The translations under genes and the position numbers were made by a program. A stretch of 64,000 bases of DNA from Streptomyces cynarae (GTDB lineage: Bacteria; Actinomycetota; Actinomycetes; Streptomycetales; Streptomycetaceae): NCBI RefSeq assembly GCF_025642135.1, contig NZ_CP106793.1:8214001-8278000 (forward strand), in the 5' to 3' direction. Below are positions 1-12,517 of the stretch, in pieces (within the stretch, counting starts at the first letter, position 1; every line of letters begins with the position of its first letter). The notes below the pieces were generated by a model. That model was given only the letters and a program-made list of their open reading frames with translations, had not been told where the DNA came from and did no database searches.

Positions 1-1137
1 GATTCCGGCCACCATGTCGAAATAGATCGCGGTCAGTTCCGCATCCGTCTGGACGGCGCGCAGCAGGGACAGCCGCTGTTCGTGCGGTGTGAGTTGGGCC
101 ACGCCGAGAGTGGACTCGTAGCCTGGGGTGAGTACTTCGTCCCGTTCCTTGGCGAAATCCCGCAGAGCGGCGTCGAGTCCGGCCGGGTCGCCGCCGAGCC
201 GGCCCTCCAGTCGGCGGGCCAGGGCATCGGCCTGGAGGAAGGCGTCGCTGATCCCGCGCGCGGTGATGGAGTCCTTGTGGTGCCCCGCGTCGCCCACCAG
301 GACCCAGCCGGGCCCGGCGGCCTGCCGGAAGAAGTTCCGCTGGTCACCGGTGCCGCGCAGCCGCTCCAGGGGCTCCCTGCCCGCGAGTCGCTCGTACAGG
401 CCGGGCGCGGTGGTGCGGATCTGTTCCAGGTAGGCCCGCCGGGCGTCGGTGCGGACCTCTTCGAAGCGGGACTGCGGGAAGTAGGCGAGGACCAGCGTCG
501 CCGCGTCGTTGGTGGCCACGGCCGCGACCCAGCTGCCCGGGCTCTCGTACAGCTCCAGGGTGGCCGGGACGTCCGCCCAGTACGTGTAGTACGCGCAGGT
601 CAGCCGGGGATCCTCCACTGTGTACGGCGCCTGCGCGAGCCGGGCGACGGTGGAACGCATGCCGTCCGCGCCGATCACGAGATGCGTGCGTTCGGTGAAG
701 GAGTGTTCCCCGGACATCGCTTCCACCCCCACGACCCGCCCGCTGGAGTCCCGCAGCAGTCCGGTCACCCGGCAGTGGTGGCGCACCTCGACGCCCGCCG
801 CGGCCGCCGCCTCCGCCAGGAGGGCGTCAAGGACGTGGCGTCGCGGCGCGAACGCCTCCCGCTGCCCTTCCACGCCCCGGGCGCACCCTTCGAGGCGGAT
901 GTCGGCGACCTCGTAGACCACGCGGTCCAGGGGCGGGCACCCCGAGGCGCGTAGCGAGTCCAGCAGCCCCCAGCGGGCGAGCGCCGCCACCCCGGGCTGG
1001 TGGATGAGATGGGTGGAGAGGGTGTCCGTGCCGGAGGGCGCCTTGTCGAGCAGGAGTACCCGGTACCCCGCGCGGGCGAGCAGCATGGCGGTGGGCGCAC
1101 CGGCGCAGCGGGCGCCTACCACGATGGCGTCGTACAT
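1..1137 (-). CDS. FAD-dependent monooxygenase, 3' end cut by left edge
   Basis: The first 379 codons are present and the frame is open to the left edge, so the C-terminus is missing. The N-terminus has the Rossmann FAD-binding signature VGARCAGAPTAMLLARAG (from about residue 8). Near residues 275-295 is the second FAD motif GDAGHHKDSITARGISDA. This pattern is typical of class A flavoprotein hydroxylases of the FAD_binding_3 type, which oxygenate aromatic or polyketide-like substrates with NAD(P)H and O2. It starts at ATG 1137 with GAGG about 9 nt upstream, 67 nt after the adenylating-enzyme gene, so it is the third gene of the KS-ACP operon and probably a tailoring oxygenase. The substrate cannot be read from sequence. 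Confidence 0.85.
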   Translation of the reverse strand, partial: MYDAIVVGARCAGAPTAMLLARAGYRVLLLDKAPSGTDTLSTHLIHQPGVAALARWGLLDSLRASGCPPLDRVVYEVADIRLEGCARGVEGQREAFAPRRHVLDALLAEAAAAAGVEVRHHCRVTGLLRDSSGRVVGVEAMSGEHSFTERTHLVIGADGMRSTVARLAQAPYTVEDPRLTCAYYTYWADVPATLELYESPGSWVAAVATNDAATLVLAYFPQSRFEEVRTDARRAYLEQIRTTAPGLYERLAGREPLERLRGTGDQRNFFRQAAGPGWVLVGDAGHHKDSITARGISDAFLQADALARRLEGRLGGDPAGLDAALRDFAKERDEVLTPGYESTLGVAQLTPHEQRLSLLRAVQTDAELTAIYFDMVAGI

Positions 1138-1204
1138 GTGGGTTGCCTCACAACAGACGTCGGGGGAGGGGGTGTTGTGGTGCGGTGACCCGGACGGGCG
1201 TCGT

Positions 1205-2743
1205 TCAGCGGGAGCGTCCGAGGTCGTCGAGCAGGGCCCGCCGGTCGATCTTGCCATTGGCGTTCAGCGGCAGTTGATCGAGGACGGCGATCCGGCGGGG
1301 CAGCATGTACGGCGGCAGCCGCTCGGCCAGGGCGGCGAACAGCCCGTCGGACGTGCAGCCGTCGCCGCTCACCGCGGCATGGAGCTCCGGCTCGCCGTCG
1401 GACGCGGGAACCGCGAGGACGACCGCGTCCCGTACCCCCGGCTGCTGCCGCACCATGGCCTCGATCTCCCCGAGTTCGATCCGGTGGCCGCGGATCTTCA
1501 CCTGGTGGTCGGTGCGTCCGAGGTGGACCAGGTGCCCGTCGCGCACGGCGACCCGGTCCCCGGTGCGGTACCAGTGCCGGTCGGTGAGCGGCCCGTCGCC
1601 GCCGGGCCGTCCGTCCGGGTCCAGGAAGCGCCCGGCGTTGTTCGCCGGGTCGAGGTAGCCGGGGAACCGCAACGGCCCCCGCACGCACAGCTCTCCGCTG
1701 TCCGAGGGCCGGCCGTCCTCGTCGATCAGCACCAGGTCGAGGACCGGATACCCCGCGCCGATCGGAGCGGTGCCGTTCGGGGTGTCGGGCCACTTCGCCG
1801 GGTCGTCCGGGAACAGGTACGCCGTGCAGGAGATGGTGAGTTCGGTCGGCCCGTACAGCACCTCCAGACGGCTGCCGGGCGCGGCGGCCCGCCACTGACG
1901 GGCCGCGTCCAGGGTGAGCGGTTCGCCGCCGAAGACGCTCCACCGCAGGGTGGGCATGCTGCCGGGTTTCAGGGTGCCGAGGCGGGAGGCGAAGGAGATC
2001 AGCGATGGCACCGAGAACCAGTGGGTGAGGCGCAGGGAGTTGACGGTCTTCACCGGGGACAGCAGCTGGCTGCGGCGCGGTACCACGAGGGTGCCCCCAC
2101 CCGCCCAGGCGACGAACAGATCGTGCACGGAGCCGTCGAAGGTCAGCTCGAAGGACTGCGACAGCCGGCTGCCGGGTGCGATGTCGTACCGCGGCGCGAC
2201 CTGGGCGAGATAGGTCGCGATGTTGCGGTGCGAGATCGGTACGCCCTTGGGGGTGCCGGTCGACCCGGACGTGAAGATGATGTACGCGATGTCGTCGGGG
2301 CCGGTCGCCGGATACGGCAGTTCGGGCGCGGGCCCCTTCGACAGGTCCGCCAGCTCGTCGGGCCCCACGGTGAGGACGGGCACCCCCTGTTCGGTGCCGG
2401 CCCCTGCGGTGTCGGCCAGCACGACCTCCACCTCGGCGGCCTTCACGATCTCGGCCGTGCGGGCCGAGGGGTGCTCGGGGTTGAGGGGGACGACGGTCGC
2501 GCCGGCCCGCAGGATCGCGAGATACCCGGCGTACGCGGTCACCGAACGGCTCGCCAACAGGCCCACGCGGCGCGGCGGGATGCCGCCCGCCGCGAGGACC
2601 AGCCGGGCGGCCAGCGCCTCCGCCAGGTCGCGCAGGTGCGCATAGGTGAGCCGCTCCTCGTCCACCTCCAGCGCGACGGCGTCCTCGCCGTAGGCGTCGG
2701 CGGAGCGGGCGAACCAGGCGTACGCGGTCTGCGGGTGGCTCAT
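1205..2743 (-). CDS. Stand-alone amino-acid adenylating enzyme (NRPS A-domain type)
   Basis: A 512-aa AMP-binding enzyme with the full A-domain core: P-loop TSGSTGTPKG (158-167), FDGS (202-205), YGPTE (297-301), YRTGD near 390 and catalytic Lys of NGKIDRR (K498). It should activate a carboxylic acid, probably an amino acid, as the acyl-AMP and load it on a carrier protein. No carrier domain is fused; the nearest is the ACP at the C-terminus of the upstream gene. A rough alignment gives pocket residues D, G, H at the first three specificity positions, and I would not predict a substrate. ATG 2743 overlaps the KS stop (ATGA) and has GGAGG upstream, so a 10-residue longer reading is rejected. 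D-alanine-carrier ligases are a related alternative. Confidence 0.88.
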   Translation of the reverse strand: MSHPQTAYAWFARSADAYGEDAVALEVDEERLTYAHLRDLAEALAARLVLAAGGIPPRRVGLLASRSVTAYAGYLAILRAGATVVPLNPEHPSARTAEIVKAAEVEVVLADTAGAGTEQGVPVLTVGPDELADLSKGPAPELPYPATGPDDIAYIIFTSGSTGTPKGVPISHRNIATYLAQVAPRYDIAPGSRLSQSFELTFDGSVHDLFVAWAGGGTLVVPRRSQLLSPVKTVNSLRLTHWFSVPSLISFASRLGTLKPGSMPTLRWSVFGGEPLTLDAARQWRAAAPGSRLEVLYGPTELTISCTAYLFPDDPAKWPDTPNGTAPIGAGYPVLDLVLIDEDGRPSDSGELCVRGPLRFPGYLDPANNAGRFLDPDGRPGGDGPLTDRHWYRTGDRVAVRDGHLVHLGRTDHQVKIRGHRIELGEIEAMVRQQPGVRDAVVLAVPASDGEPELHAAVSGDGCTSDGLFAALAERLPPYMLPRRIAVLDQLPLNANGKIDRRALLDDLGRSR

Positions 2744-4713
2744 CGGGCGGCCGCCTCCAGCTCGCGCGTCCACCGACGCAGTTCACCCACGGTGCGCAGC
2801 CTGCCGAACTCCTCGGGGTCGACCTCCTGGCTCGACCGCTTGGTCAGCTCGACGATGATCCGGAGCTTGGCCAGGGAGTCGATGCCGATGTCGGTGAGTG
2901 TGGACGTGTCGTCGAAGCCGGTGCGTGCGTGCTCGCGCAGCACCCAGGACGCCAGGTCGCCACCGTCGTCGTCGTGCTCCTCGCCGGGCCAGTACCGCTT
3001 GGTCTGCCACGGGTACGTGGGCAGCGGGACGAAGTGGCCCGGGTCGCCGAACACCGCCTCCCAGTCCACGTCCTCGCCCCTCCGGTAGCGCTCGGCGACG
3101 GCCGACAGCGGTCTGCCGCCCAGTCCGGGGGAGCCGGTCAGCGCGGCCACCAACTCCTCGTGGCTCGCCCCGACGACCGCGAGCCGGTGCTCGTGATGCT
3201 GCCGACGGGTGGCCGCGCTGTAGCAGATGTCCCGCACGGAGTACGCGGCCCCCGCTCCGCCGGGGGAGAGGTGGTCGGCGTACGACCGGGCGAGTGCTGC
3301 CAGTGCGGCGGAACTGCGCGCGGAGAGCACCAGGACGTACGGCGTGGGGCGCGCGGCGCCTGTGGGCGCCGGACCTCGCCCGGTGCGGGGCGCGGCCGGT
3401 GCTTCGGCGGGGGCGGGGCTGCGGATCACCACATGTGCGTTGAGCGCCGAGGAGCCCTGCCCGGAGACACCGGCGACGGCCGGCCGGCCCCTCCCGGGCA
3501 GGTCGACGAGCCCGGTCGGCACCACCAGCGGCAGCTCGTCCCAGCCCACCTCGGGGTTCGGCTTCGACAGGTGCAGGCTGGCGGGCACCTGCCCGTGTTC
3601 CAGGCAGAGCACCGCCTTGATCAGCCCGGCCAGGCCGCCGGCGGCCTCCGCGTGCCCGATGTTCGTCTTGACCGAGCCGACGAGCAGCGGCCGGCCGGCC
3701 GGGCGGCCCTCGCCCAGGACCCGGCCCAGCGCGGTCAGTTCCAGGGGGTCGAACGAGGGCGAGCCGGAGCCGTGCGCCTCGACGTAGTCGACGTCCGCGG
3801 GATCGATCCCGGCGTCCTCGTACGCCCAGCGCAACACGTCGATCTGGCCCTGGAGCGAGGGGTTGAGCACCGAGTCGCTGGTGCGGCCGTCGTTGCCGAC
3901 GGCGCTGCCCTGGATGACGGCGCGGATGCGGTCGCCGTCGGCCACGGCGTCCGCAAGGCGCTTGAGGACGACGACCGCCACGGCGTCGCTCGGCGCGTGG
4001 CCGTCGGCGCTCGCGTCACCGAACTTGCTGCGCCCGTCGGCGGCCATGCCGCCGGCCTGTGTCATCACCAGGCCCTCGTCCGGACGGAGTTTGAGGTTCA
4101 CACCCGCGGCCAGGGCCAGAGGGGTCTCCCGGGCGCGCAGGCTCTGCACGGCCTGGTGGACGGCGACCAGGGACGAGGAGCAAGCCGTGTCCACGACAAC
4201 ACTGGGCCCGCGGAAGTCGAAGGTGTGGGAGATCCGGGCCGGCAGCAGTGAGCGGAAGTTGTTCAACTGCGAGGCCGTGGCGCCGTCCGGCCCCTGGCGC
4301 AGGGCCAACTCCAGGTAGTCCGCACGGGCGTTGCCCACGAACACCCCGGTCCGGCTGCCTGCCAGCAGGTCGGGCCGCTGCCCCGCGTCCTCCAGCGCCT
4401 CCCAGGCGGTCATCAGCAACAGCCGCTGCTGCGGGTCGAGTTCCACCGCCTCCGTGGCAGACATCCCGAAGAACTCGGCGTCGAAGTGGGCGATGTCGTC
4501 AACGTAGCCCGCGCGGCGGCTGGCTATGCGGCCCGGTCCGGGGACGGCGGAGTGGAGGACGTCGACGTCATAACGTTCGGGAGGGGTCTCACTGGTGGCG
4601 TCCGTACCGTCCCTCAGGAGGGCCCAGAGCTCGTCGGCTCCCGATGCGCCGGGAAGCCGGCAGGCCACGCCGATCACCGCCACCGCCCGGGCGTCCGCGT
4701 CCGACCTGTTCAT
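2740..4713 (-). CDS. AT-less polyketide synthase protein: KS - linkers - ACP
   Basis: A 657-aa protein and first gene of the operon. The ketosynthase covers about residues 9-430 with nucleophile C178 (DTACSSSL), H314 in EAHGSGSP (usual EAHGTGT) and H354 in KTNIGHAEAAGG. Residues 457-535 (YVLVLSARS...) match the KS-to-AT linker. Residues 543-575 (RRGEDVDWEAVF...LPTYPWQTKRYW) match the segment that normally follows an acyltransferase, but the roughly 300-residue AT is missing between them. The C-terminus is a carrier domain with phosphopantetheine Ser S613 (GIDSL). It probably extends an acyl or aminoacyl chain once, with extender units loaded in trans. ATG 4713 has AAGGAG about 11 nt upstream; a longer in-frame reading adds proline-rich non-homologous residues. 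Confidence 0.87.
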   Translation of the reverse strand: MNRSDADARAVAVIGVACRLPGASGADELWALLRDGTDATSETPPERYDVDVLHSAVPGPGRIASRRAGYVDDIAHFDAEFFGMSATEAVELDPQQRLLLMTAWEALEDAGQRPDLLAGSRTGVFVGNARADYLELALRQGPDGATASQLNNFRSLLPARISHTFDFRGPSVVVDTACSSSLVAVHQAVQSLRARETPLALAAGVNLKLRPDEGLVMTQAGGMAADGRSKFGDASADGHAPSDAVAVVVLKRLADAVADGDRIRAVIQGSAVGNDGRTSDSVLNPSLQGQIDVLRWAYEDAGIDPADVDYVEAHGSGSPSFDPLELTALGRVLGEGRPAGRPLLVGSVKTNIGHAEAAGGLAGLIKAVLCLEHGQVPASLHLSKPNPEVGWDELPLVVPTGLVDLPGRGRPAVAGVSGQGSSALNAHVVIRSPAPAEAPAAPRTGRGPAPTGAARPTPYVLVLSARSSAALAALARSYADHLSPGGAGAAYSVRDICYSAATRRQHHEHRLAVVGASHEELVAALTGSPGLGGRPLSAVAERYRRGEDVDWEAVFGDPGHFVPLPTYPWQTKRYWPGEEHDDDGGDLASWVLREHARTGFDDTSTLTDIGIDSLAKLRIIVELTKRSSQEVDPEEFGRLRTVGELRRWTRELEAAAR

Positions 4714-5557
4714 GAGGTTACTCCTTCGATGTTCGCCACTGTCCGTAGGAGATGGCGCAGTTGACCTTGCCGCACGGCCTTCTGGCCGCTGACGCGGCAT
4801 CACGGCATTACCGAGGCGGCGCGGTGGACGCAACATGGCGTCCGTCACGCCGCCCCACCGCCAGGCCCCCGTCTCCGGGCGGAAGGGACGGTCCGCTCAG
4901 GAGCCCGGTACGCCGTCGTACCGGGCTCGTCCGTCGGACAACAGAGCTTCTCGAGCAGGTTGGCGCCCCCTGGAACCGGTTGCCGGACAGACCCTCGTCG
5001 GGGCGGGACAGCGGGCCGTCAGGAACGGCATGGATCTTGGCGGGAAACCGCGCATGGCGCCCTGGCCGAAACGGCGCTGCCGCTCTCTTTGGTGACGGGC
5101 GGTCCGCAGCTCGAACCGTACTTGCCCCACGCTGCCGTGCCCTCTCTCGCAGGTGCATCGCACGAACCCATTACACACGGGCCGCACCAGCGGCGACATG
5201 TCCCGTCCGTCACAGCCCACGGGAATCCGAACCAAAGTTCGATCATCGCGTGGGAGTTCGGATGAAATGCGCCGAGGTCGAAAACCGGCCCGCCGCACGA
5301 TTGTCGTACGCCGGATCGTTTCCGCTCGATGGACGCTCAAGGAATGGCGGGAAGTGATCGCCGCAGGTTGAAACCTGGAAATATTTGGACAGAATCCCAG
5401 TTTGGCCATCTGTGCGCCCGCGCGAGGGCGCGGTGGTCGCGGAGTCGGTCCGATCAAGTCCCGGCGGCTCGCGAAGCGTTGTGCGTGAGTCAAGTGACAC
5501 GGAAATCAGCGGGTGGGGCGATCCGCGGAAGCCGGGATTCTGCTTTCATCTGATCCC
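4714..5557. other. Long divergent intergenic region
   Basis: About 840 bp between the minus-strand KS operon and the plus-strand GAF gene. Open frames here have no convincing ribosome-binding site or codon bias, so I see no gene. It holds a strong perfect hairpin (4901-4928), an 8-bp inverted repeat (5225-5232 with 5256-5263) and a locally AT-rich stretch around 5375-5400. Promoters for both flanking units presumably lie here. Confidence 0.6.
4901..4928. repeat. Perfect 12-bp hairpin (terminator-like)
   Basis: GAGCCCGGTACG (4901-4912) and CGTACCGGGCTC (4917-4928) are perfect inverted arms around a CCGT loop. There is no T-run. It sits 190 nt upstream of the KS start, inside a divergent region where no terminator is expected, so it may be a regulatory RNA hairpin or mark an unseen transcript. 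Confidence 0.7.
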
Positions 5558-6586
5558 ATGGATCCCCTCTCTCCTGACCAGGCCCGGCTCGCGGGTGAAC
5601 AACGGAAGCTAAGACTGCAGGTTCTCGGCCTCAACACCGTCGAGGCGGAAGCCACGTTCGACCGTGTCGCGAGGCTGGCGGCCAGTTTCACCCAGTCACC
5701 TCTGGCCATGGTCAACTTCATCAACGACGAGCGGCAGATGTTCCGCGGCATGTACGTGCCCACCGCGTCGCCCGACGACAAGGTGAACCCCGACGGTGGT
5801 GGGATCGCCTTCGACCTCAGCAACCTCTCCCGGGAGGCCCCGGGTGACTACGGCTTCTGCCCCCATGTGGTGGCCCAGGGGTCCCAACTGGCCCTCGACG
5901 ACGTCTTCGACTACCCCCGTTTCAAGGGCAACCCCCTGGTCAACGACCTGGGCGTGCGCTCCTACCTCGGCACTCCGCTGCGTGACAACACGGGCATGAT
6001 CCTGGGCACCGTGTGCGTCGCCGACTTCAAGCCCCGCGCCTGGGACCGCGGCCTGCGCGAGGGCATGCAGGAACTCAGCCAGACCCTGCTGTCCGACTTC
6101 AAACTGCGGGACAGCCTGCTGGCCCAGCAGCAAGAGCTGTTCGCCGTCTTCGACGGCGCACCCTTCCCCATCATGCTCACCGAGGGCCCCAACCACCTGC
6201 TGCGCTACGCCAACGCCAAGCAGGGCGCGGCCTTCGGCATGGTTCCCCAGTTCAGCCCCGGCCGGATGGTGCTGCCCGGCCTGGAGGCCATAGGCGTCTT
6301 CAACGCGATGGACGACGCCTACCGCACCGGGCAGCCCACCACGCTGTCCCAGGTCTCCCTCGCCACGTACGACGATCCACGGCCGCAGGAGTTCACCTTC
6401 CTGTGCACACCCGTGCGTACGTCGCCCGGGGCGCCGATCAGCGGTGTCCTGACGGTGGCCATGCAGAGCACCGGACAGAGCTACCCGGGCTCCGAGCAGC
6501 AGGCCTTCGCGGCCAACGTCCAGGAGCGCTTCGAGCGGCTCGGCGCGATGCCGGACCACCGGGAGAGCGCCGGTTACCGCACCTGA
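5558..6586 (+). CDS. GAF-PAS sensor protein
   Basis: A 342-aa soluble protein. Residues about 25-185 form a GAF domain of the type whose N-terminus reads LGL-T-EAEATFDRVARLAA, with FINDERQMFRGM and a late GTVCVADFKPRAWD segment. Residues about 195-320 look PAS-like (ELFAVFDGAPFPIMLTEG...LLRYANAKQGAAF). There is no kinase, phosphatase, GGDEF or DNA-binding domain, so it is a stand-alone ligand or redox sensing module whose partner is unknown. The start is uncertain: ATG 5558 has only a weak ribosome-binding site, and an in-frame GTG at 5513 adds 15 residues without domain content. A hairpin follows it. Confidence 0.8.
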   Translation: MDPLSPDQARLAGEQRKLRLQVLGLNTVEAEATFDRVARLAASFTQSPLAMVNFINDERQMFRGMYVPTASPDDKVNPDGGGIAFDLSNLSREAPGDYGFCPHVVAQGSQLALDDVFDYPRFKGNPLVNDLGVRSYLGTPLRDNTGMILGTVCVADFKPRAWDRGLREGMQELSQTLLSDFKLRDSLLAQQQELFAVFDGAPFPIMLTEGPNHLLRYANAKQGAAFGMVPQFSPGRMVLPGLEAIGVFNAMDDAYRTGQPTTLSQVSLATYDDPRPQEFTFLCTPVRTSPGAPISGVLTVAMQSTGQSYPGSEQQAFAANVQERFERLGAMPDHRESAGYRT

Positions 6587-6607
6587 CCACCCTCTGCGCC
6601 GATCGAC

Positions 6608-6640
6608 CAGGGCTCGGGTTCCTGAACTGCCCGAGCCCTG
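6608..6640. terminator. Bidirectional terminator hairpin
   Basis: CAGGGCTCGGG (6608-6618) and CCCGAGCCCTG (6630-6640) form a perfect 11-bp stem with an 11-nt loop. It lies between the convergent GAF gene (end 6586) and acyl-CoA ligase gene (end 6726). No T-tract is present, as is common in Streptomyces. Confidence 0.75.
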
Positions 6641-6725
6641 ACGGCCGCGGCCTCGCGACGGCGGCCCCGAGGCACAGTCCCGGCGAGGGGCCCGGTGAGA
6701 AGGAAGTGAGAGGCCCCCACCCCCG

Positions 6726-8357
6726 TCACCGGTGGGCGGAGCGGTCCGCCGCCACCGCAACCTCCCTGGCCCAGCGGTAGTCCGCCTTGCCGCTCGGCGA
6801 GCGCCGGACGACCTCCGTGACCACCAGCTGGCGCGGGATCTTGTAGCCCGCGAGCCGTGTCCGGCAGTGGGCCTGGATGTCTTCCAGGGAGGGACGTGCC
6901 GCGCCCCGGCGCACCTGTACCACCGCGGCCACGTGGTTGCCCCACATCGCGTCCGGGACCCCGGCCACCAGGGCGTCGTACACGTCCGGATGCGCCTTGA
7001 GCGCCTGTTCGACCTCCTCCGGGTACACCTTCTCGCCGCCGGTGTTGATGCACTGCGAGCCGCGCCCCAGGACGGTGACGACGCCCTCCTCGTCGACCGT
7101 CGCCATGTCGCCGAGGAGTACCCAGCGCTCGCCGTCCTTCTCGAAGAACGTCTCCGCGGTTTTCCCCGGGTCGTTGTAGTACCCGAGCGGTACGTGGCCG
7201 CGCTGCGCGATGCGGCCGACCTCACCGGCCGGTACCGGCTCGAGGGTGACCGGGTCCACCACCCGCGTACGGGAGTTGACCCGGATGCGGAAGCCCCGGT
7301 CCGGGCCGGAGTCGGCGGTCGCGGTGCCGTTGAAACCGGACTCCGAGGACCCGAAGTTGTTCAGCAGCAGGGCGTTCGGGACGAGCGCCTGGAACTGCGC
7401 GCGCACGGTCTCCGACATGATGGCCCCGGACGACGACACGCTGAACAGGGATGAGCAGTCGGTGCCCTTCATCGGCCCGCTCAACGCGTCGACAAGCGGC
7501 CGCAGCATCGCGTCGCCCACCAGCGACACGCTGGTGACCTTCTCCTTCTCGATCGTCCGGAGCACTTCCTCCGGCACGAACTTGCGGTGCAGTACCACCC
7601 GCTGGCCGAAGTGGAAGCCGATGAACGCGGTGAGGGTGGACGTGCCGTGCATCAGCGGGGGAGTGGGGAAGAAGGTGATGCCGTAGCCGCCGGCCGCGAC
7701 CCGCTCGGCCAGCTCCTCCGGCTTGCCGACCGGCTCGCCGGTCGGGGCGCCGCCGCCCAGGCCGGAGAAGAACAGGTCCTCCTGCCGCCACATCACGCCC
7801 TTCGGCATGCCGGTCGTGCCACCGGTGTAGATGATGAACTGGTCGTCGCCCGAGCGGGCCGGGAAGCCCCGCTGGGGCGACCCGGCGGTCTCCGCGCCGG
7901 CGAAGTCCACCGCGGTCAGCGCGGGCGCCCCCGGCGCGGGCGTGCCCACCCGCACCAGATGCCGCAGCTTCTCCGCCGCGGACAGCGCCGCCGCGACCCG
8001 GTCGGTGAACTCCGCGTCGAAGACCAGCGCCACCAGGTCCGCGTCCCGGTAGAGGTACAGCAACTCCTCTTCCACATACCGGTAGTTGACATTGACCGGC
8101 ACGATCCGGGCCTTGAGGCAGCCCAGCACCGTCTGCAGGTACTCGACGCCGTTGTACAGATGCAGCCCCAGGTGTTCCCCCGGGCGTATCCCCGCGTCCA
8201 GCAGATGGTGCCCGATGCGGTTGGCCGCCCGGTCCAGCTCCGCGTAGGTGAGACGGCGCTCGGCACCCGTGCCCGGGTGGTCGACGTACACCAGCGCCTC
8301 GCGGTCCGCGGCCACGTCGACGACCGACTCGAACAGGTCGGCAAGGTTGTACTCCAC
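6726..8357 (-). CDS. FadD19-type acyl-CoA synthetase
   Basis: A 543-aa ANL-superfamily acyl-CoA ligase that should convert a fatty or steroid side-chain acid to its CoA thioester. Visible motifs are the P-loop YTGGTTGMPKG (about 180-190), FGSSE in the acyl pocket region, the LLGDMATVDEEG hinge and a C-terminal Lys in SPSGKADYRW. The N-terminus (NLADLFE...RLTYAELDRAANRIGHHL...VNVNYRYVEEEL) closely resembles mycobacterial FadD19. GTG 8357 is preceded by AGGAGG. It is divergent from an EchA19-DUF35-Ltp-Ltp operon, the same gene set found around fadD19 in mycobacterial cholesterol side-chain catabolism, so a role in steroid or isoprenoid-acid degradation is likely but not proven. Confidence 0.85.
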   Translation of the reverse strand: MEYNLADLFESVVDVAADREALVYVDHPGTGAERRLTYAELDRAANRIGHHLLDAGIRPGEHLGLHLYNGVEYLQTVLGCLKARIVPVNVNYRYVEEELLYLYRDADLVALVFDAEFTDRVAAALSAAEKLRHLVRVGTPAPGAPALTAVDFAGAETAGSPQRGFPARSGDDQFIIYTGGTTGMPKGVMWRQEDLFFSGLGGGAPTGEPVGKPEELAERVAAGGYGITFFPTPPLMHGTSTLTAFIGFHFGQRVVLHRKFVPEEVLRTIEKEKVTSVSLVGDAMLRPLVDALSGPMKGTDCSSLFSVSSSGAIMSETVRAQFQALVPNALLLNNFGSSESGFNGTATADSGPDRGFRIRVNSRTRVVDPVTLEPVPAGEVGRIAQRGHVPLGYYNDPGKTAETFFEKDGERWVLLGDMATVDEEGVVTVLGRGSQCINTGGEKVYPEEVEQALKAHPDVYDALVAGVPDAMWGNHVAAVVQVRRGAARPSLEDIQAHCRTRLAGYKIPRQLVVTEVVRRSPSGKADYRWAREVAVAADRSAHR

Positions 8358-8463
8358 CGTTCCTCCTGAGCTCGGTCCCGCACGGCGAAGGGGACGCATC
8401 CGACGGTTCGCCGGTCATCAGAGCAAAGCCCGGCGCAACTGTGAAGGGCCCTCGGCGAAGAAA

Positions 8464-8480
8464 TCTGACTGCCTGTCAGA
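8464..8480. promoter_or_regulatory. 17-bp palindrome, candidate operator
   Basis: TCTGACTGCCTGTCAGA is a dyad with 7 of 8 base pairs matching around a central C. It lies in the 186-bp region between divergent starts at 8357 and 8544. Size and position suit a TetR-family operator controlling both arms, although no regulator gene is adjacent. Confidence 0.6.
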
Positions 8481-8543
8481 AAACTCTTGTCCTTGCTCCG
8501 CCCCTCCTGCAACCTGTTCTCGTTCGGTGGACGGGAGGAAGCG

Positions 8544-9344
8544 ATGGGTGGGACGGAACACCTCACCGTGCGGCGCGAAGGCGCCACACTGGTGCTCACG
8601 CTCAACAGGCCCGAGGCCAGGAACGCGCTCTCGTTACCGATGCTGGTGGGGCTCTACGACGGGTGGGTCGAGGCGGACGAGGACGACACCGTCCGCTCGA
8701 TCGTGCTCACCGGCGCCGGCGGCTCCTTCTGCGCGGGGATGGATCTCAAGGCCCTGGCCGGAAAGGGCATGGAAGGGCAGCGGTACCGCGAGCGGCTCGA
8801 CGCCGACCCCGATCTGCACTGGAAGGCGATGCTGCGCCACCACCGCCCCCGCAAGCCGGTGATCGCCGCCGTCGAGGGCCCCTGCGTGGCGGGCGGCACC
8901 GAGGTCCTCCAGGGCACCGACATCCGTGTGGCGGCCGAGTCCGCGACCTTCGGCCTGTTCGAGGTCCGGCGCGGACTGTTCCCGATCGGCGGCTCCACGG
9001 TCCGCCTCCAGCGGCAGATCCCGCGCACCCACGCCCTGGAGATGCTGCTCACGGGGCGCCTCTACTCCGCGCACGAGGCCGCCGCCATCGGACTCGTGGG
9101 CCATGTCGTGCCCGACGGCACCGCCCTCACCAAGGCACTGGAGATCGCCGAACGGATCAACGGCTGCGGGCCACTGGCGGTCGAGGCCGTCAAGGCCTCC
9201 GTGTACGAGACCGCGGAGATGACGGAGACCGAGGGGCTCGCCGCCGAACTCAAGCGCGGGTGGCCCGTCTTCGACACCGCGGACGCCAGGGAAGGCGCCC
9301 GCGCCTTCGCGGAGAAACGCCCACCCGTCTACAAGCGCGCCTGA
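8544..9344 (+). CDS. EchA19-type enoyl-CoA hydratase (TTA codon)
   Basis: A 266-aa crotonase that should hydrate a 2-enoyl-CoA. The oxyanion-hole segments are RPEARNALS (22-30) and GAGGSFCAGMDLKAL; the helix carrying the usual acids reads EVRRGLFPIGGS. Family length is normal. ATG 8544 has GGGAGG 6-7 nt upstream; an earlier in-frame start adds an unconserved N-terminus. Codon 31 is TTA (8634-8636), rare in Streptomyces and read by the bldA tRNA, so expression may be tied to development. First gene of a four-gene operon with the OB-fold protein and two thiolases. The name rests on synteny with mycobacterial echA19. Confidence 0.87.
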   Translation: MGGTEHLTVRREGATLVLTLNRPEARNALSLPMLVGLYDGWVEADEDDTVRSIVLTGAGGSFCAGMDLKALAGKGMEGQRYRERLDADPDLHWKAMLRHHRPRKPVIAAVEGPCVAGGTEVLQGTDIRVAAESATFGLFEVRRGLFPIGGSTVRLQRQIPRTHALEMLLTGRLYSAHEAAAIGLVGHVVPDGTALTKALEIAERINGCGPLAVEAVKASVYETAEMTETEGLAAELKRGWPVFDTADAREGARAFAEKRPPVYKRA

Positions 9345-9366
9345 CCCACCGAAGGAGTCCGTAAGG

Positions 9367-10308
9367 ATGCCCGGAGTCCTCAAAGCCCCTCTCGTCGTCG
9401 AGTTCCCCTTCACCCGCTCCCTCGGCCCCGTCCAGGGCGCCTTTCTCACCGGCCTGCGCGAACGCGTGGTCCTCGGGGTGAGGACCCGCGACGGCCGCAC
9501 CCTCGTCCCGCCCGTCGAGTACGACCCCGTCACCGCCGAGGAGATCCGCGACCTCGTCGAGGTCGCCCCCACCGGCACGGTCACCACCTGGGCGTGGAAC
9601 CACGAACCCCGCCGTGGCCAGCCCCTTTCCAGCCCCTTCGCCTGGGTGCTGGTGAAGCTCGACGGCGCCGACACCGCCCTGCTGCACGCCCTCGACGTCC
9701 CCGGACCCGAAGCCGTCCGCACCGGCCTGCGGGTCCGCATCCGATGGGCCGAGGAGCGCTCCGGCGCCATCACGGACCTCGCCTGCTTCGAGCCGTACGA
9801 CGGCGAACCGGCCCGTCCGGCAGGCCACGACGGCGAGTTCGAGGACGCGATCACGGGCATCGTCGCCCCGGCCCGTCTCGACTACACCTACTCGCCGGGC
9901 CGCGCCCAGTCCGCCTACATAGGCGCCCTCGCCGGACAACGCACCGTCGGTGAGCGCTGCCCGAAGTGCCGCAAGGTGTACGTACCGCCGCGCGGTGCCT
10001 GCCCCACCTGTGGTGCCGCCACACACGAGCAGGTCGAAGTGGGTCCCCGCGGCACGGTCACCACCTTCTGCATCGTCAACATCAAGGCGAAGAACCTCGA
10101 CATCGAAGTGCCGTACGTCTACGCGCACATCGCTCTGGACGGCGCCGACCTAGCGCTGCACGGCCGCATCGGCGGCATCCCCTACGACCAGGTCCGCATG
10201 GGACTGCGGGTCGAGCCGGTGTGGACCCGGGGGGCGCGCCACCCCGACCACTACCGGCCCACCGGCGAACCCGACGCCCACTACGACTCGTACAAGGAGC
10301 TGCTGTGA
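9367..10308 (+). CDS. Double OB-fold protein with zinc ribbon (DUF35/ChsH2-like)
   Basis: A 313-aa protein of two OB-fold units. The second is preceded by a rubredoxin-like zinc ribbon CPKC...CPTC (about 198-216), while the first half has lost its cysteines. Proteins of this family bind Ltp-type thiolases or MaoC-type hydratases and can carry acyl-CoA or feed aldol cleavage in steroid side-chain breakdown. It sits 22 nt after the hydratase gene and overlaps the next gene by 4 nt (GTGA), so its partner is probably that thiolase-like protein. ATG 9367 follows GAAGGAG. Equivalent in position to Rv3521 of Mycobacterium tuberculosis, by recall rather than search. Confidence 0.8.
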   Translation: MPGVLKAPLVVEFPFTRSLGPVQGAFLTGLRERVVLGVRTRDGRTLVPPVEYDPVTAEEIRDLVEVAPTGTVTTWAWNHEPRRGQPLSSPFAWVLVKLDGADTALLHALDVPGPEAVRTGLRVRIRWAEERSGAITDLACFEPYDGEPARPAGHDGEFEDAITGIVAPARLDYTYSPGRAQSAYIGALAGQRTVGERCPKCRKVYVPPRGACPTCGAATHEQVEVGPRGTVTTFCIVNIKAKNLDIEVPYVYAHIALDGADLALHGRIGGIPYDQVRMGLRVEPVWTRGARHPDHYRPTGEPDAHYDSYKELL

Positions 10309-11354
10309 CCCGCGAGATCGCCGTCGTCGCCTTCGCCCAGACCGCACACCGGCGCACCAGCGACGAGCTCTCCGAGGTGGAGATGCTCATGCCGGTCCTG
10401 CATGAGGTGCTGGAGCGGACCGGCCTGAAGACCGCCGACATCGGCTTCACCTGCTCCGGTTCCAGCGACTACCTCGCCGGCCGCGCCTTCTCCTTCACCC
10501 TCGCCCTGGACGGAGTGGGCGCCTGGCCGCCGATCTCCGAGTCGCACGTCGAGATGGACGGCGCCTGGGCGCTGTACGAGGCGTGGACGAAACTGCTCAC
10601 CGGCGACGCCGACACCGCGCTCGTCTACTCCTACGGCAAGTCCTCACCCGGCCCCGTACGGGACGTGCTGACCCGGCAGCTCGACCCCTACTACGTCGCC
10701 CCCCTGTGGCCCGACCCCGTCGCCCTGGCCGCCCTCCAGGCACAGGCGCTCATCGACGCGGGCGAGACCGACGAGCCGGCCCTGGCCGCCGTCGCCGCCC
10801 GCAACCGCGCTGCCGCGAGCAGCAACTCGCATGCCCAGCTCCGGGGTTCCATACCCCAGGGTGACTACCTCGTACGGCCGTTGCGCACCGGTGACTGCCC
10901 GCCGATCGGTGACGGAGCGGCCGCAGTGATCCTCGCGACCGGGGAGCGGGCCCGGGAGCTGTGCGCACGGCCCGCCTGGATCCGGGGCATCGACCACCGT
11001 ATAGAGGCGCACGGACTCGGCGTGCGCGACCTGACGGACTCGCCGTCCACGCGACTCGCCGCAGAGAAGGCCGGCGCCTTCGAACGGCCCGTCGACACCG
11101 CCGAGTTGCACGCCCCGTTCACGTCCCAGGAGGTGATCCTGCGCAAGGCGCTCCGCCTCGACGACAGCGTCACGGTCAACCCCTCGGGCGGCGCCCTCGC
11201 CGCCCACCCGATCATGGCCGCCGGGCTCATCCGCGTCGGCGAGGCCGCCGCCCGCATCCACCGCGGCGAGTCCGACCGCGCCCTGGCCCACGCCACCTCC
11301 GGACCGTGTCTGCAACAGAACCTGGTCGCCGTACTCGAAGGGGATCCCCGATGA
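10305..11354 (+). CDS. Ltp-type thiolase-like protein (Ltp4-like)
   Basis: A 349-aa member of the SCP-X/lipid-transfer thiolase family. It begins VTREIAVVAFAQTAHRR, has a central GDGAAAVILATGERA segment and the C-terminal VNPSGGALAAHPIMAAGLIR block. These proteins act as thiolases or retro-aldolases on branched or steroid side-chain acyl-CoA, usually with a DUF35 partner, which is encoded immediately upstream. The start is GTG 10305 overlapping the preceding TGA (GTGA), so translation is probably coupled; no alternative start fits the N-terminus. The next gene overlaps by ATGA. Confidence 0.83.
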   Translation: MTREIAVVAFAQTAHRRTSDELSEVEMLMPVLHEVLERTGLKTADIGFTCSGSSDYLAGRAFSFTLALDGVGAWPPISESHVEMDGAWALYEAWTKLLTGDADTALVYSYGKSSPGPVRDVLTRQLDPYYVAPLWPDPVALAALQAQALIDAGETDEPALAAVAARNRAAASSNSHAQLRGSIPQGDYLVRPLRTGDCPPIGDGAAAVILATGERARELCARPAWIRGIDHRIEAHGLGVRDLTDSPSTRLAAEKAGAFERPVDTAELHAPFTSQEVILRKALRLDDSVTVNPSGGALAAHPIMAAGLIRVGEAAARIHRGESDRALAHATSGPCLQQNLVAVLEGDPR

Positions 11355-12517
11355 GCAAGGAACCCGTGGCCGTCGTTGGGATCGGCCAGACCAGGCATGT
11401 GGCGGCGCGCCGGGACGTGTCGATCGCGGGGCTGGTGAGGGAGGCCGCCGGACGTGCCCTGGACGACGCCGGGTTGACGTGGGCGGACGTCGAGGCCGTC
11501 GTCATCGGGAAGGCGCCCGACTTCTTCGAGGGCGTGATGATGCCGGAGCTCTACCTCGCCGACGCCCTGGGCGCCGTGGGCAAGCCCATGCTGCGGGTGC
11601 ACACGGCCGGTTCGGTCGGCGGCTCCACCGCGCTCGTCGCCGCCAACCTGGTCGCGGCCCGTGTCCACCGCACCGTCCTGACCCTGGCCTTCGAGAAGCA
11701 GTCCGAGTCCAACGCCATGTGGGGCCTGTCGCTCCCGATCCCCTTCCAGCAGCCGCTGCTGGCCGGCGCGGGCGGCTTCTTCGCGCCGCACGTACGGGCG
11801 TACATGCGGCGCAGCGGCGCCCCCGACAGCATCGGCTCGCTGGTCGCGTACAAGGACCGGCGCAACGCGCTCAAGAACCCGTACGCGCATCTGCACGAGC
11901 ACGACATCACGCTGGAGAAGGTGCAGTCCTCGCCCATGCTGTGGGACCCCATCCGCTACTCCGAGACCTGCCCCTCCTCCGACGGCGCCTGCGCGATGGT
12001 GCTCACCGACCGTACGGGGGCGGCCCGTTCGCCCCGGCCGCCCGCGTGGATGCTCGGCGGCGCCATGCGCAGCGAGCCGACCCTCTTCGCGGGCAAGGAC
12101 TTCGTGTCACCCCGGGCCGGAAAGGACTGCGCCGCCGACGTCTACCGGCAGGCCGGGATCTCCGACCCGCGCCGGGACATCGACGCGGCCGAGATCTACG
12201 TGCCGTTCTCCTGGTACGAACCGATGTGGCTGGAGAACCTCGGTTTCGCCGACGAGGGCGAGGGCTGGAAGCTCACCGAGGCCGGGGTGACCGAACTCGA
12301 CGGAGACCTCCCCGTCAACATGTCGGGCGGGGTGCTGTCCACCAATCCCATCGGCGCATCCGGCATGATCCGCTTCGCGGAGGCGGCGCTCCAGGTGCGC
12401 GGGCAGGCCGGGGAACACCAGGTGGACGGGGCCCGCCGGGTGCTCGGGCACGCCTATGGCGGGGGGTCGCAGTTCTTCTCCATGTGGCTGGTCGGCGACC
12501 GGCCGCCGAGTTCCTGA
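11351..12517 (+). CDS. Ltp-type thiolase-like protein (Ltp3-like)
   Basis: A 388-aa thiolase-superfamily protein beginning MSKEPVAVVGIGQTRH. It has the HTAGSVGGSTALVAA block near the thiolase active-site region, CPSSDGACAMVL, NMSGGVLSTNPIGASGMIR and the C-terminal GHAYGGGSQFF. The canonical nucleophilic Cys context of biosynthetic thiolases is altered, as is common in Ltp proteins. It is the last gene of the hydratase-OB-fold-Ltp-Ltp operon and starts by ATGA overlap with the previous thiolase. The pair may form a heteromeric retro-aldolase/thiolase for side-chain cleavage; which of the two is catalytic cannot be decided from sequence. Confidence 0.83.
   Translation: MSKEPVAVVGIGQTRHVAARRDVSIAGLVREAAGRALDDAGLTWADVEAVVIGKAPDFFEGVMMPELYLADALGAVGKPMLRVHTAGSVGGSTALVAANLVAARVHRTVLTLAFEKQSESNAMWGLSLPIPFQQPLLAGAGGFFAPHVRAYMRRSGAPDSIGSLVAYKDRRNALKNPYAHLHEHDITLEKVQSSPMLWDPIRYSETCPSSDGACAMVLTDRTGAARSPRPPAWMLGGAMRSEPTLFAGKDFVSPRAGKDCAADVYRQAGISDPRRDIDAAEIYVPFSWYEPMWLENLGFADEGEGWKLTEAGVTELDGDLPVNMSGGVLSTNPIGASGMIRFAEAALQVRGQAGEHQVDGARRVLGHAYGGGSQFFSMWLVGDRPPSS

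Follow-up and report, generated by a model that had tools for sequence, protein, structure and literature searches.

How does a polyketide synthase (PKS) protein that lacks its acyltransferase (AT) domain obtain an extender unit, and what could it make in the middle of a signalling locus? The question is raised by three adjacent minus-strand genes of Streptomyces cynarae, at the start of the 64,000-nucleotide stretch of DNA that we analysed (contig NZ_CP106793.1, positions 8,214,001 to 8,278,000; hereafter the window). The trio encodes a ketosynthase-acyl carrier protein (KS-ACP) fusion, P0001, a stand-alone adenylation (A) enzyme and an FAD-dependent oxidoreductase. Judging from the gene content, it is probably an AT-less, amino-acid-primed, N-oxygenating mini-synthase in a conservon locus (cvnA to cvnD). 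We propose, with a probability of roughly 45%, that the trio is a minimal assembly line in which the A enzyme charges the ACP, the FAD enzyme N-oxygenates the bound amino acid and the KS performs one malonyl extension, and that the product is tied to the conservon. The first-pass annotation of this DNA, made from the sequence letters, had read the trio as a one-step, amino-acid-primed synthase with an AT acting in trans; as a whole, that interpretation is partly supported here. The KS-ACP protein is laid out as follows.

2740..4713, minus strand (4713→2740): AT-less KS-ACP protein P0001, 657 amino acids (open reading frame and Pfam).
3424..4689, minus strand: ketosynthase core, residues 9-430 (Pfam), with C178 at 4182-4180, H314 at 3774-3772 and H354 at 3654-3652.
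3139..3339, minus strand: KS-AT linker domain, residues 459-525 (PF22621), with alpha/beta elements in the structure model.
2986..3111, minus strand: post-AT linker, residues 535-576, with the C-terminal motif LPTYPWQTKRYW (phmmer and family-conserved motif).
2746..2955, minus strand: acyl carrier domain, residues 587-656, Ser613 within GIDSL (PF00550), with four helices in the model.

The AT had been described as cleanly missing between retained linkers, and this description holds. P0001 matches PF00109 (residues 9-256), PF02801 (265-382), the KS-AT linker PF22621 (459-525; 64.3 bits for a cut-off of 27), PF16197 and PF00550 (600-647; 23.3 bits for a cut-off of 20.8), and the Pfam scan found no PF00698 acyltransferase in it. 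The post-AT motif LPTYPWQTKRYW, at residues 564-575, is conserved across the AT-less family, and in phmmer the post-AT ends of both CurL and PikA1 aligned, with weak scores, to about residues 528-575. Comparison with AT-bearing rows, along the lines suggested in the first-pass annotation, gives the size of the gap. In 37 family rows, the window included, the end of the KS core lies 110-163 residues from the motif (median 123), compared with 375-535 residues (median 440) in 44 rows with both an AT and a match to the motif pattern; AT rows lacking a pattern match were excluded, and the 44 include two KSs of the window's genome in duplicate. P0001 lacks about 317 residues, exactly at the AT position, and the PF00698 profile has 319 positions: the deficit is that of one AT, with both flanking linkers retained. 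A sequencing error or local deletion was rejected, since the same gap is found in 37 rows from several genera.

The KS and ACP active sites are intact, as had been claimed. C178, H314 and H354 of the KS and S613 of the ACP are invariant in all 26 aligned homologues, as is the ACP motif DSL. When the set is widened to 44 locus rows and those with a letter at the position are counted, C178 is kept in 43/43, H314 in 42/42 and S613 in 39/40, a scaffold gap interrupting the exception (L039); no ACP is annotated in L036, and its letter at the S613 column carries no meaning. The EAHGTGT site varies over 42 rows (EAHGSGS 27, EAHGAGS 5, EAHGTGS 5, EAHGSGA 2, EAHGTGT 3). A degenerate KS was rejected, because the catalytic residues are kept with the sole exception of L033, discussed below. 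When the structure model of P0001 was searched with Foldseek, the 50 rows shown were all KS or KS-AT structures.

The other two members of the trio are encoded downstream of P0001.

1205..2743, minus strand: stand-alone adenylation enzyme of the nonribosomal peptide synthetase (NRPS) type, 512 amino acids (Pfam, TIGR01733), with the pocket D G H F V G L I S K.
1..1137, minus strand, ending 48 bases beyond window base 1: FAD-dependent oxidoreductase of the PlyE/Lun21 group, 394 amino acids.

The stand-alone adenylating enzyme noted at first sight is indeed adjacent, its start overlapping the KS-ACP stop as ATGA, and it is of the NRPS type. It scores 354.9 bits with TIGR01733 (cut-off 317.4) and, like NRPS A domains, keeps D203 and K498, the equivalents of Asp235 and Lys517 of the α-amino-acid pocket; the pocket as a whole is kept with small changes across the family. 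These features suggest that it activates an α-amino acid. An A enzyme 47% identical to it (43% by BLAST) is encoded beside a carrier gene, and the cluster also contains LnmK-family and HMG-CoA synthase genes; we take this A enzyme and carrier to be LnmQ- and LnmP-like. Among solved structures the top single-domain scores were those of 8k4r, 6akd and 8xjz_C, and the two-domain LgrA scored higher in sum. Entry 6akd is IdnL7, with Gly, L-Ala and L-Ser as substrates.

As for the FAD monooxygenase, its presence beside the A gene stood, and its kind can be narrowed, for it is not a generic enzyme. Among named proteins Lun21 of S. lunaelactis is the closest (54.5% identity, full length), and this full-length homology, established by comparison with Lun21 alone, places it in the PlyE/Lun21/LrgO group. 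In 12 genome loci with an FAD relative of 49-58% identity, an A-domain match was found within the stretch (about 9-19 kb) in 10. A PP-binding protein adjoins the FAD gene in L131 and L127, and annotated A, carrier and FAD genes stand in a row in L142. Lunaemycin A contains a hydroxylated Ile with the OH on nitrogen, according to mass spectrometry and NMR, and Lun21 has been proposed as its maker. Polyoxypeptin production is abolished in ΔplyE, and sets of the PlyC/PlyD/PlyE type are proposed to form N-hydroxy amino acids on stand-alone carriers. LrgO, to which DpnO3 is 54% identical, is reported to form the oxime of largimycin, and the ΔlrgO product lacks it. The FAD enzyme of the trio is kin to PlyE and Lun21, whose presumed substrates are carrier-bound amino acids, oxidised at the amine, and is itself a probable amine-oxidising enzyme.

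Is the trio a unit? A genome search for the three-gene set, also proposed in the first-pass annotation, found it conserved in 33 distinct loci that had the trio and enough sequence to be taken as testable. In the four of these outside Streptomyces, from Rugosimonospora (L026) and Saccharopolyspora (L028, L037 and L044), the KS-ACP, A and FAD genes are again adjacent (4/4); L028 and L037 have common surroundings, and those of L026 and L044 differ. The loci were the best 80 of 349 from a pattern-limited scan, from which all counted loci come except L083, a plasmid hit. L124, L136, L168 and L169 have contigs of the same lengths as L032, L025, L035 and L010, and each pair was counted once; L167 was also left uncounted, and L008, L013, L014, L015, L039, L041 and L042, which meet contig or scaffold ends or break early, were excluded from the conservon count given below. 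The KS of L037 is split over two frames; this locus was retained as a trio locus with an unmeasurable linker distance. An apparent fusion of the KS to a prenyl synthase in L039 was dropped, as a run of 100 N lies within the join. Relatives of the KS-ACP protein also occur in Stackebrandtia, Amycolatopsis, Actinomadura and Actinoallomurus, among the 120 proteins listed of 6908. The gene set had not been recognised from the sequence, and literature searches likewise found no description of it in PMC papers, subscription journals being mostly outside their reach. Rfam gave 0 matches in window 1-9000, and the promoter and terminator scans yielded nothing useful.

The first-pass annotation had suggested looking past window base 1 for the remaining genes. 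The extended locus (L085) holds the end of the FAD gene and then a conservon, with CvnA carrying a NIT domain, the roadblock protein CvnB, the DUF742 protein CvnC and CvnD in order, and no more biosynthetic genes; CvnD matches PF03029 and not the Ras-type model. On the far side of P0001 the locus is bounded by a divergent gene.

5558..6586, plus strand: divergent GAF and PAS-like sensory protein, 342 amino acids (PF01590), residues 189-328 of which aligned to structures of Rv1364c fragments.

The part of Rv1364c matched by this protein is presumably its PAS domain. The eight-gene order is thus GAF-PAS (divergent), then KS-ACP, A, FAD, CvnA, CvnB, CvnC and CvnD. Within the stretch covered, CvnABCD accompanies the trio in 29/29 testable Streptomyces-type loci and in 0/4 of the others. 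The GAF gene adjoins the trio in 28 of the Streptomyces-type loci; the remaining one (L043) begins inside the KS gene. Close homologues of the A, FAD, CvnA and GAF proteins co-occur in the same six of 121 Streptomyces genomes (G000, G030, G061, G069, G101 and G130). The identity limits used (A at least 65%, FAD at least 68%, CvnA at least 47% over nearly the whole query, GAF at least 69%) were chosen after the gaps were seen, and the scoring covers only the best first-look candidates. Beyond the six, the next best homologues reach 59% for A, 59% for FAD and 39% for CvnA, with none for GAF at E 1e-60; other CvnA proteins reach up to 49% over the kinase half alone. All six genomes show the order GAF / KS, A, FAD, CvnA, B, C; CvnD lies beyond the stretches of G101 and G130 and was seen in L035 and L010, whose contigs are equal in length to theirs. 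A KS search of 36 other members of the genus gave one close protein (G030, 74%) and four more at 48-52%, in longer frames with an AT. Pairwise distances, compared over 27 loci for six proteins of the block, gave correlations of 0.83-0.94, a level reached in 0/500 permutations, although common descent alone could explain this.

The GAF protein does not follow the usual pattern of its kind. CvnF (GAF) accessories have been reported with CvnA proteins lacking NIT, whereas this one has a PAS-like part besides its single GAF domain and its CvnA has NIT. The pair may be an exception to the CvnF rule; otherwise, the GAF-PAS protein would be a partner of a different kind. In L007, L008, L017, L018 and L031 (about 3.5-6.6 kb), the far flank of the GAF gene carries a second conservon, more distant and running opposite to the first. 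Farther along, window 6726-12517 encodes an ordinary acyl-CoA degradation set (acyl-CoA synthetase, enoyl-CoA hydratase and an OB-fold/zinc-ribbon protein), including two further open reading frames that look thiolase-like by eye.

From these elements a route can be sketched. The A enzyme would activate an α-amino acid and load it onto the ACP of the KS-ACP protein; the FAD enzyme, if it acts like its relatives, would then oxygenate the carrier-bound amine to an N-hydroxy or oxime group. The aminoacyl group would move to the KS cysteine, and the freed ACP would take malonyl from an AT in trans, perhaps FabD, after which the KS, with its catalytic residues in place, would carry out a single decarboxylative condensation. 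Because the trio encodes neither a thioesterase nor a reductase or condensation domain, self-release of the β-keto product is probable; one might speculate that the amine or N-OH closes a ring on the thioester, giving an N-hydroxy-tetramate-like ring. The product would be a small, N-oxygenated, amino-acid-derived molecule. Since the trio is located inside a G-protein signalling locus, this molecule is probably controlled or sensed by it: co-inheritance suggests a functional link between the GAF-conservon unit and the product, the unit acting as regulator or as sensor.

Where would the AT come from? No AT gene was found beside the trio, among the AT matches of the genome itself or the open reading frames read in L085 and the window. 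Loading in trans, as the first-pass annotation had it, is therefore the natural reading. Two candidates in the genome lie apart from the PKS frames of contig 2. One is a 314-amino-acid protein that among NCBIfam models matches FabD best (176 bits, below the cut-off of 260.9) and whose gene precedes a FabH gene; FabD would be the simplest AT donor for the KS-ACP protein. The alternative would be the AT of a 772-amino-acid frame. This frame belongs to a PKS region (G000:C1:3164425-3168871) in which the KS and part of an AT occupy one frame and the AT and a thioesterase domain the 772-residue one; the region may be a broken or a two-protein PKS.

A bolder version of the proposal would make the trio a dedicated signal synthase: its small N-oxygenated, amino-acid-primed diketide would serve either the GAF-PAS protein or the NIT domain of the neighbouring CvnA as ligand, in a self-contained synthase-plus-receptor circuit, and the AT of the KS-ACP protein would have been lost independently of the classical trans-AT enzymes. 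We consider this version doubtful. The ligand of CvnF8 has been called undetermined, and CvnA NIT domains are thought to sense something other than nitrate; the trio, set between a GAF sensor gene and cvnA, is a concrete candidate source of a conservon ligand. It also offers candidate new N-O chemistry on a KS-ACP protein.

Several points weigh against the minimal assembly line. The proposal rests on sequence analysis, and a single ACP must hold both starter and extender. The structure model is weak (mean pLDDT 64, from 26 sequences) and shows only the linker and the ACP helices. The A pocket differs at three VinM-typical residues, so the amino acid cannot be named beyond "an α-amino acid". 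The stand-alone A enzymes beside PlyE-like genes in L131 and L142 are just 29-30% identical to that of the trio, so the tethered substrate may differ from that of PlyE-type systems. The authors of the lunaemycin study left open whether N-oxidation occurs on the carrier. The FAD relative occurs without an A match in the stretch in L134 and L138 (2/12), and on a plasmid (L143) with no NRPS gene or A domain nearby. The partnership with FabD is assumed, and perhaps the second AT, with its thioesterase domain, takes that part. In L028 and L037 an NRPS gene (with condensation and AMP-binding domains in L028) begins some 5 kb beyond the FAD gene, and in L019 a KS and an A match are located past the GAF gene; these three loci leave room for a link of the trio to a larger pathway. 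H354 is kept in 41/42 rows of the wider set, the exception being the trio locus L033 (L033:10001-12022), where a Tyr stands at this second catalytic His, by sequencing error or real loss. Finally, trio and conservon each occur without the other, and conservons beside biosynthetic genes, already known from frankiamicin and Cvn8, have been read as regulators.

These last two points lead to the rival that survives best, and we give it a little under an even chance: the conservon and the GAF protein only regulate the trio, or merely share its neighbourhood, and the product is an ordinary metabolite that has an outside role and is no signal for the conservon. Deletion of cvn8 genes raises expression of the adjoining lanthipeptide cluster, and the frankiamicin cluster contains a conservon read as its regulator. 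G037, from another family of the order, lacks the trio at this locus, with its GAF gene and CvnABCD side by side in the same divergent arrangement (L135:8652-14316), so that two modules have been combined or separated; the four loci outside Streptomyces carry the trio without a conservon, and neither part therefore needs the other. Nothing in our data speaks against this rival; in the testable Streptomyces-type loci, the fixed place of the trio between GAF and cvnA fits regulation and sensing equally.

A second rival concerns the chemistry, and we find it unlikely. Here the KS would not condense but serve as an acyl carrier or transferase station, the trio building, on its ACP, an amino acid with an N-hydroxy or oxime group and releasing it for another pathway, much as PlyC/PlyD/PlyE-type sets are proposed to do on their carriers. 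The lack of an AT gene beside the trio, the His-less KS of L033 and the nearby NRPS genes of L028 and L037 fit such a role. The catalytic triad, on the other hand, is invariant in the 26 homologues and kept in at least 41/42 locus rows, the trio has no thioesterase, and no NRPS gene was recognised beside it in the window and L085.

The ancestry of the KS bears on the third rival. In a KS tree of 62 rows, 11 trio rows form a single group (100/99), and with the AT-less L036, L038 and L084 a 14-row group (100/99). The latter sits in a 17-row group (100/99) whose remaining three rows carry ATs, in KS-AT-DH(-ER-KR)-ACP proteins. The Eleftheria, Kitasatospora and Bacillus plasmid rows without an AT match are placed elsewhere; these AT-less reference rows (L145-L147) are few and uncurated and are called AT-less by a missing AT match. 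The AT-less actinobacterial clade is nested among cis-AT KSs in this tree. Its sisters L036:7161-12993, L038:7080-12999 and L084:12084-18064 have no attached ACP and lie in a different conserved cassette, with a DoxX-like gene, a PrnB-family protein, an FAD monooxygenase, the AT-less KS and a discrete ACP (assigned partly by eye), and with a FabH-like KS III in L036 and L038. Streptomyces modular PKSs at L048:6200-11290 and L068:12272-17287 have some KSs followed by an AT match and others not, the AT-less ones with the post-AT motif 131-147 residues from the KS and grouping within the cis-AT part of the tree, in an apparent second loss of the AT. The proposal that the KS-ACP protein is an ordinary member or fragment of a trans-AT PKS can claim the same KS-linker-post-AT-ACP layout, since three Eleftheria KS rows that show no AT match have the motif 155-171 residues from the KS, but it is very unlikely, because the tree puts the KS with cis-AT KSs and separates it from the few AT-less reference rows used, P0001 scores 434 bits with CurL (423 for the KS region) against 316 with PksL and 309 with PksJ at best, and no trans-AT assembly line was recognised around the trio in the loci read.

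How, then, does the trio compare with known systems? Classical trans-AT modules likewise have an AT gap between intact KS-AT and post-AT linkers, as the Eleftheria rows illustrate; the trio KS does not group with trans-AT clades (again, on few uncurated rows), and no discrete AT is encoded in the cluster. The unusual point is the location of an AT-less lineage among cis-AT KSs, not the layout itself. With CurL-type cis-AT modules, whose CurL KS-AT is the best single-domain match of the P0001 KS among the alignments shown, P0001 has the KS and the KS-AT linker (PF22621) in common, but it has lost the AT and has no β-processing domains. A very small, natural, amino-acid-primed PKS that would have to borrow its AT may be useful for the study of AT loss in cis-AT lineages. 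The PlyC-PlyD-PlyE and Lun21/DpnO3 systems (polyoxypeptin, lunaemycin, diperamycin) likewise combine an A enzyme, a carrier and an FAD oxidoreductase, with FAD relatives at 49-58% identity; their carrier is a peptidyl carrier protein (PCP), their product feeds a large NRPS and they have no KS, whereas the trio has a KS-ACP protein. The leinamycin and largimycin starter machinery (LnmQ-type A enzyme, PCP, LrgO and an AT-less PKS) has a similar A enzyme beside a carrier and, in largimycin, an FAD amine oxidase; it is a multi-module line, compared with one KS-ACP protein in the trio. Enzymes of the IdnL7/VinM type are among the best single-domain matches of the A enzyme to solved structures, but the pocket residues C217, A285 and T318 of IdnL7 correspond to G204, G272 and S305 in the trio enzyme (by motif alignment, not structure), which thus has no VinM/IdnL7-like Cys/Ala/Thr pocket. 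Finally, the order CvnA(NIT)-CvnB-CvnC-CvnD is that of known conservons; here, by contrast, enzymes are embedded alongside, and a GAF protein is paired with a NIT-bearing CvnA.

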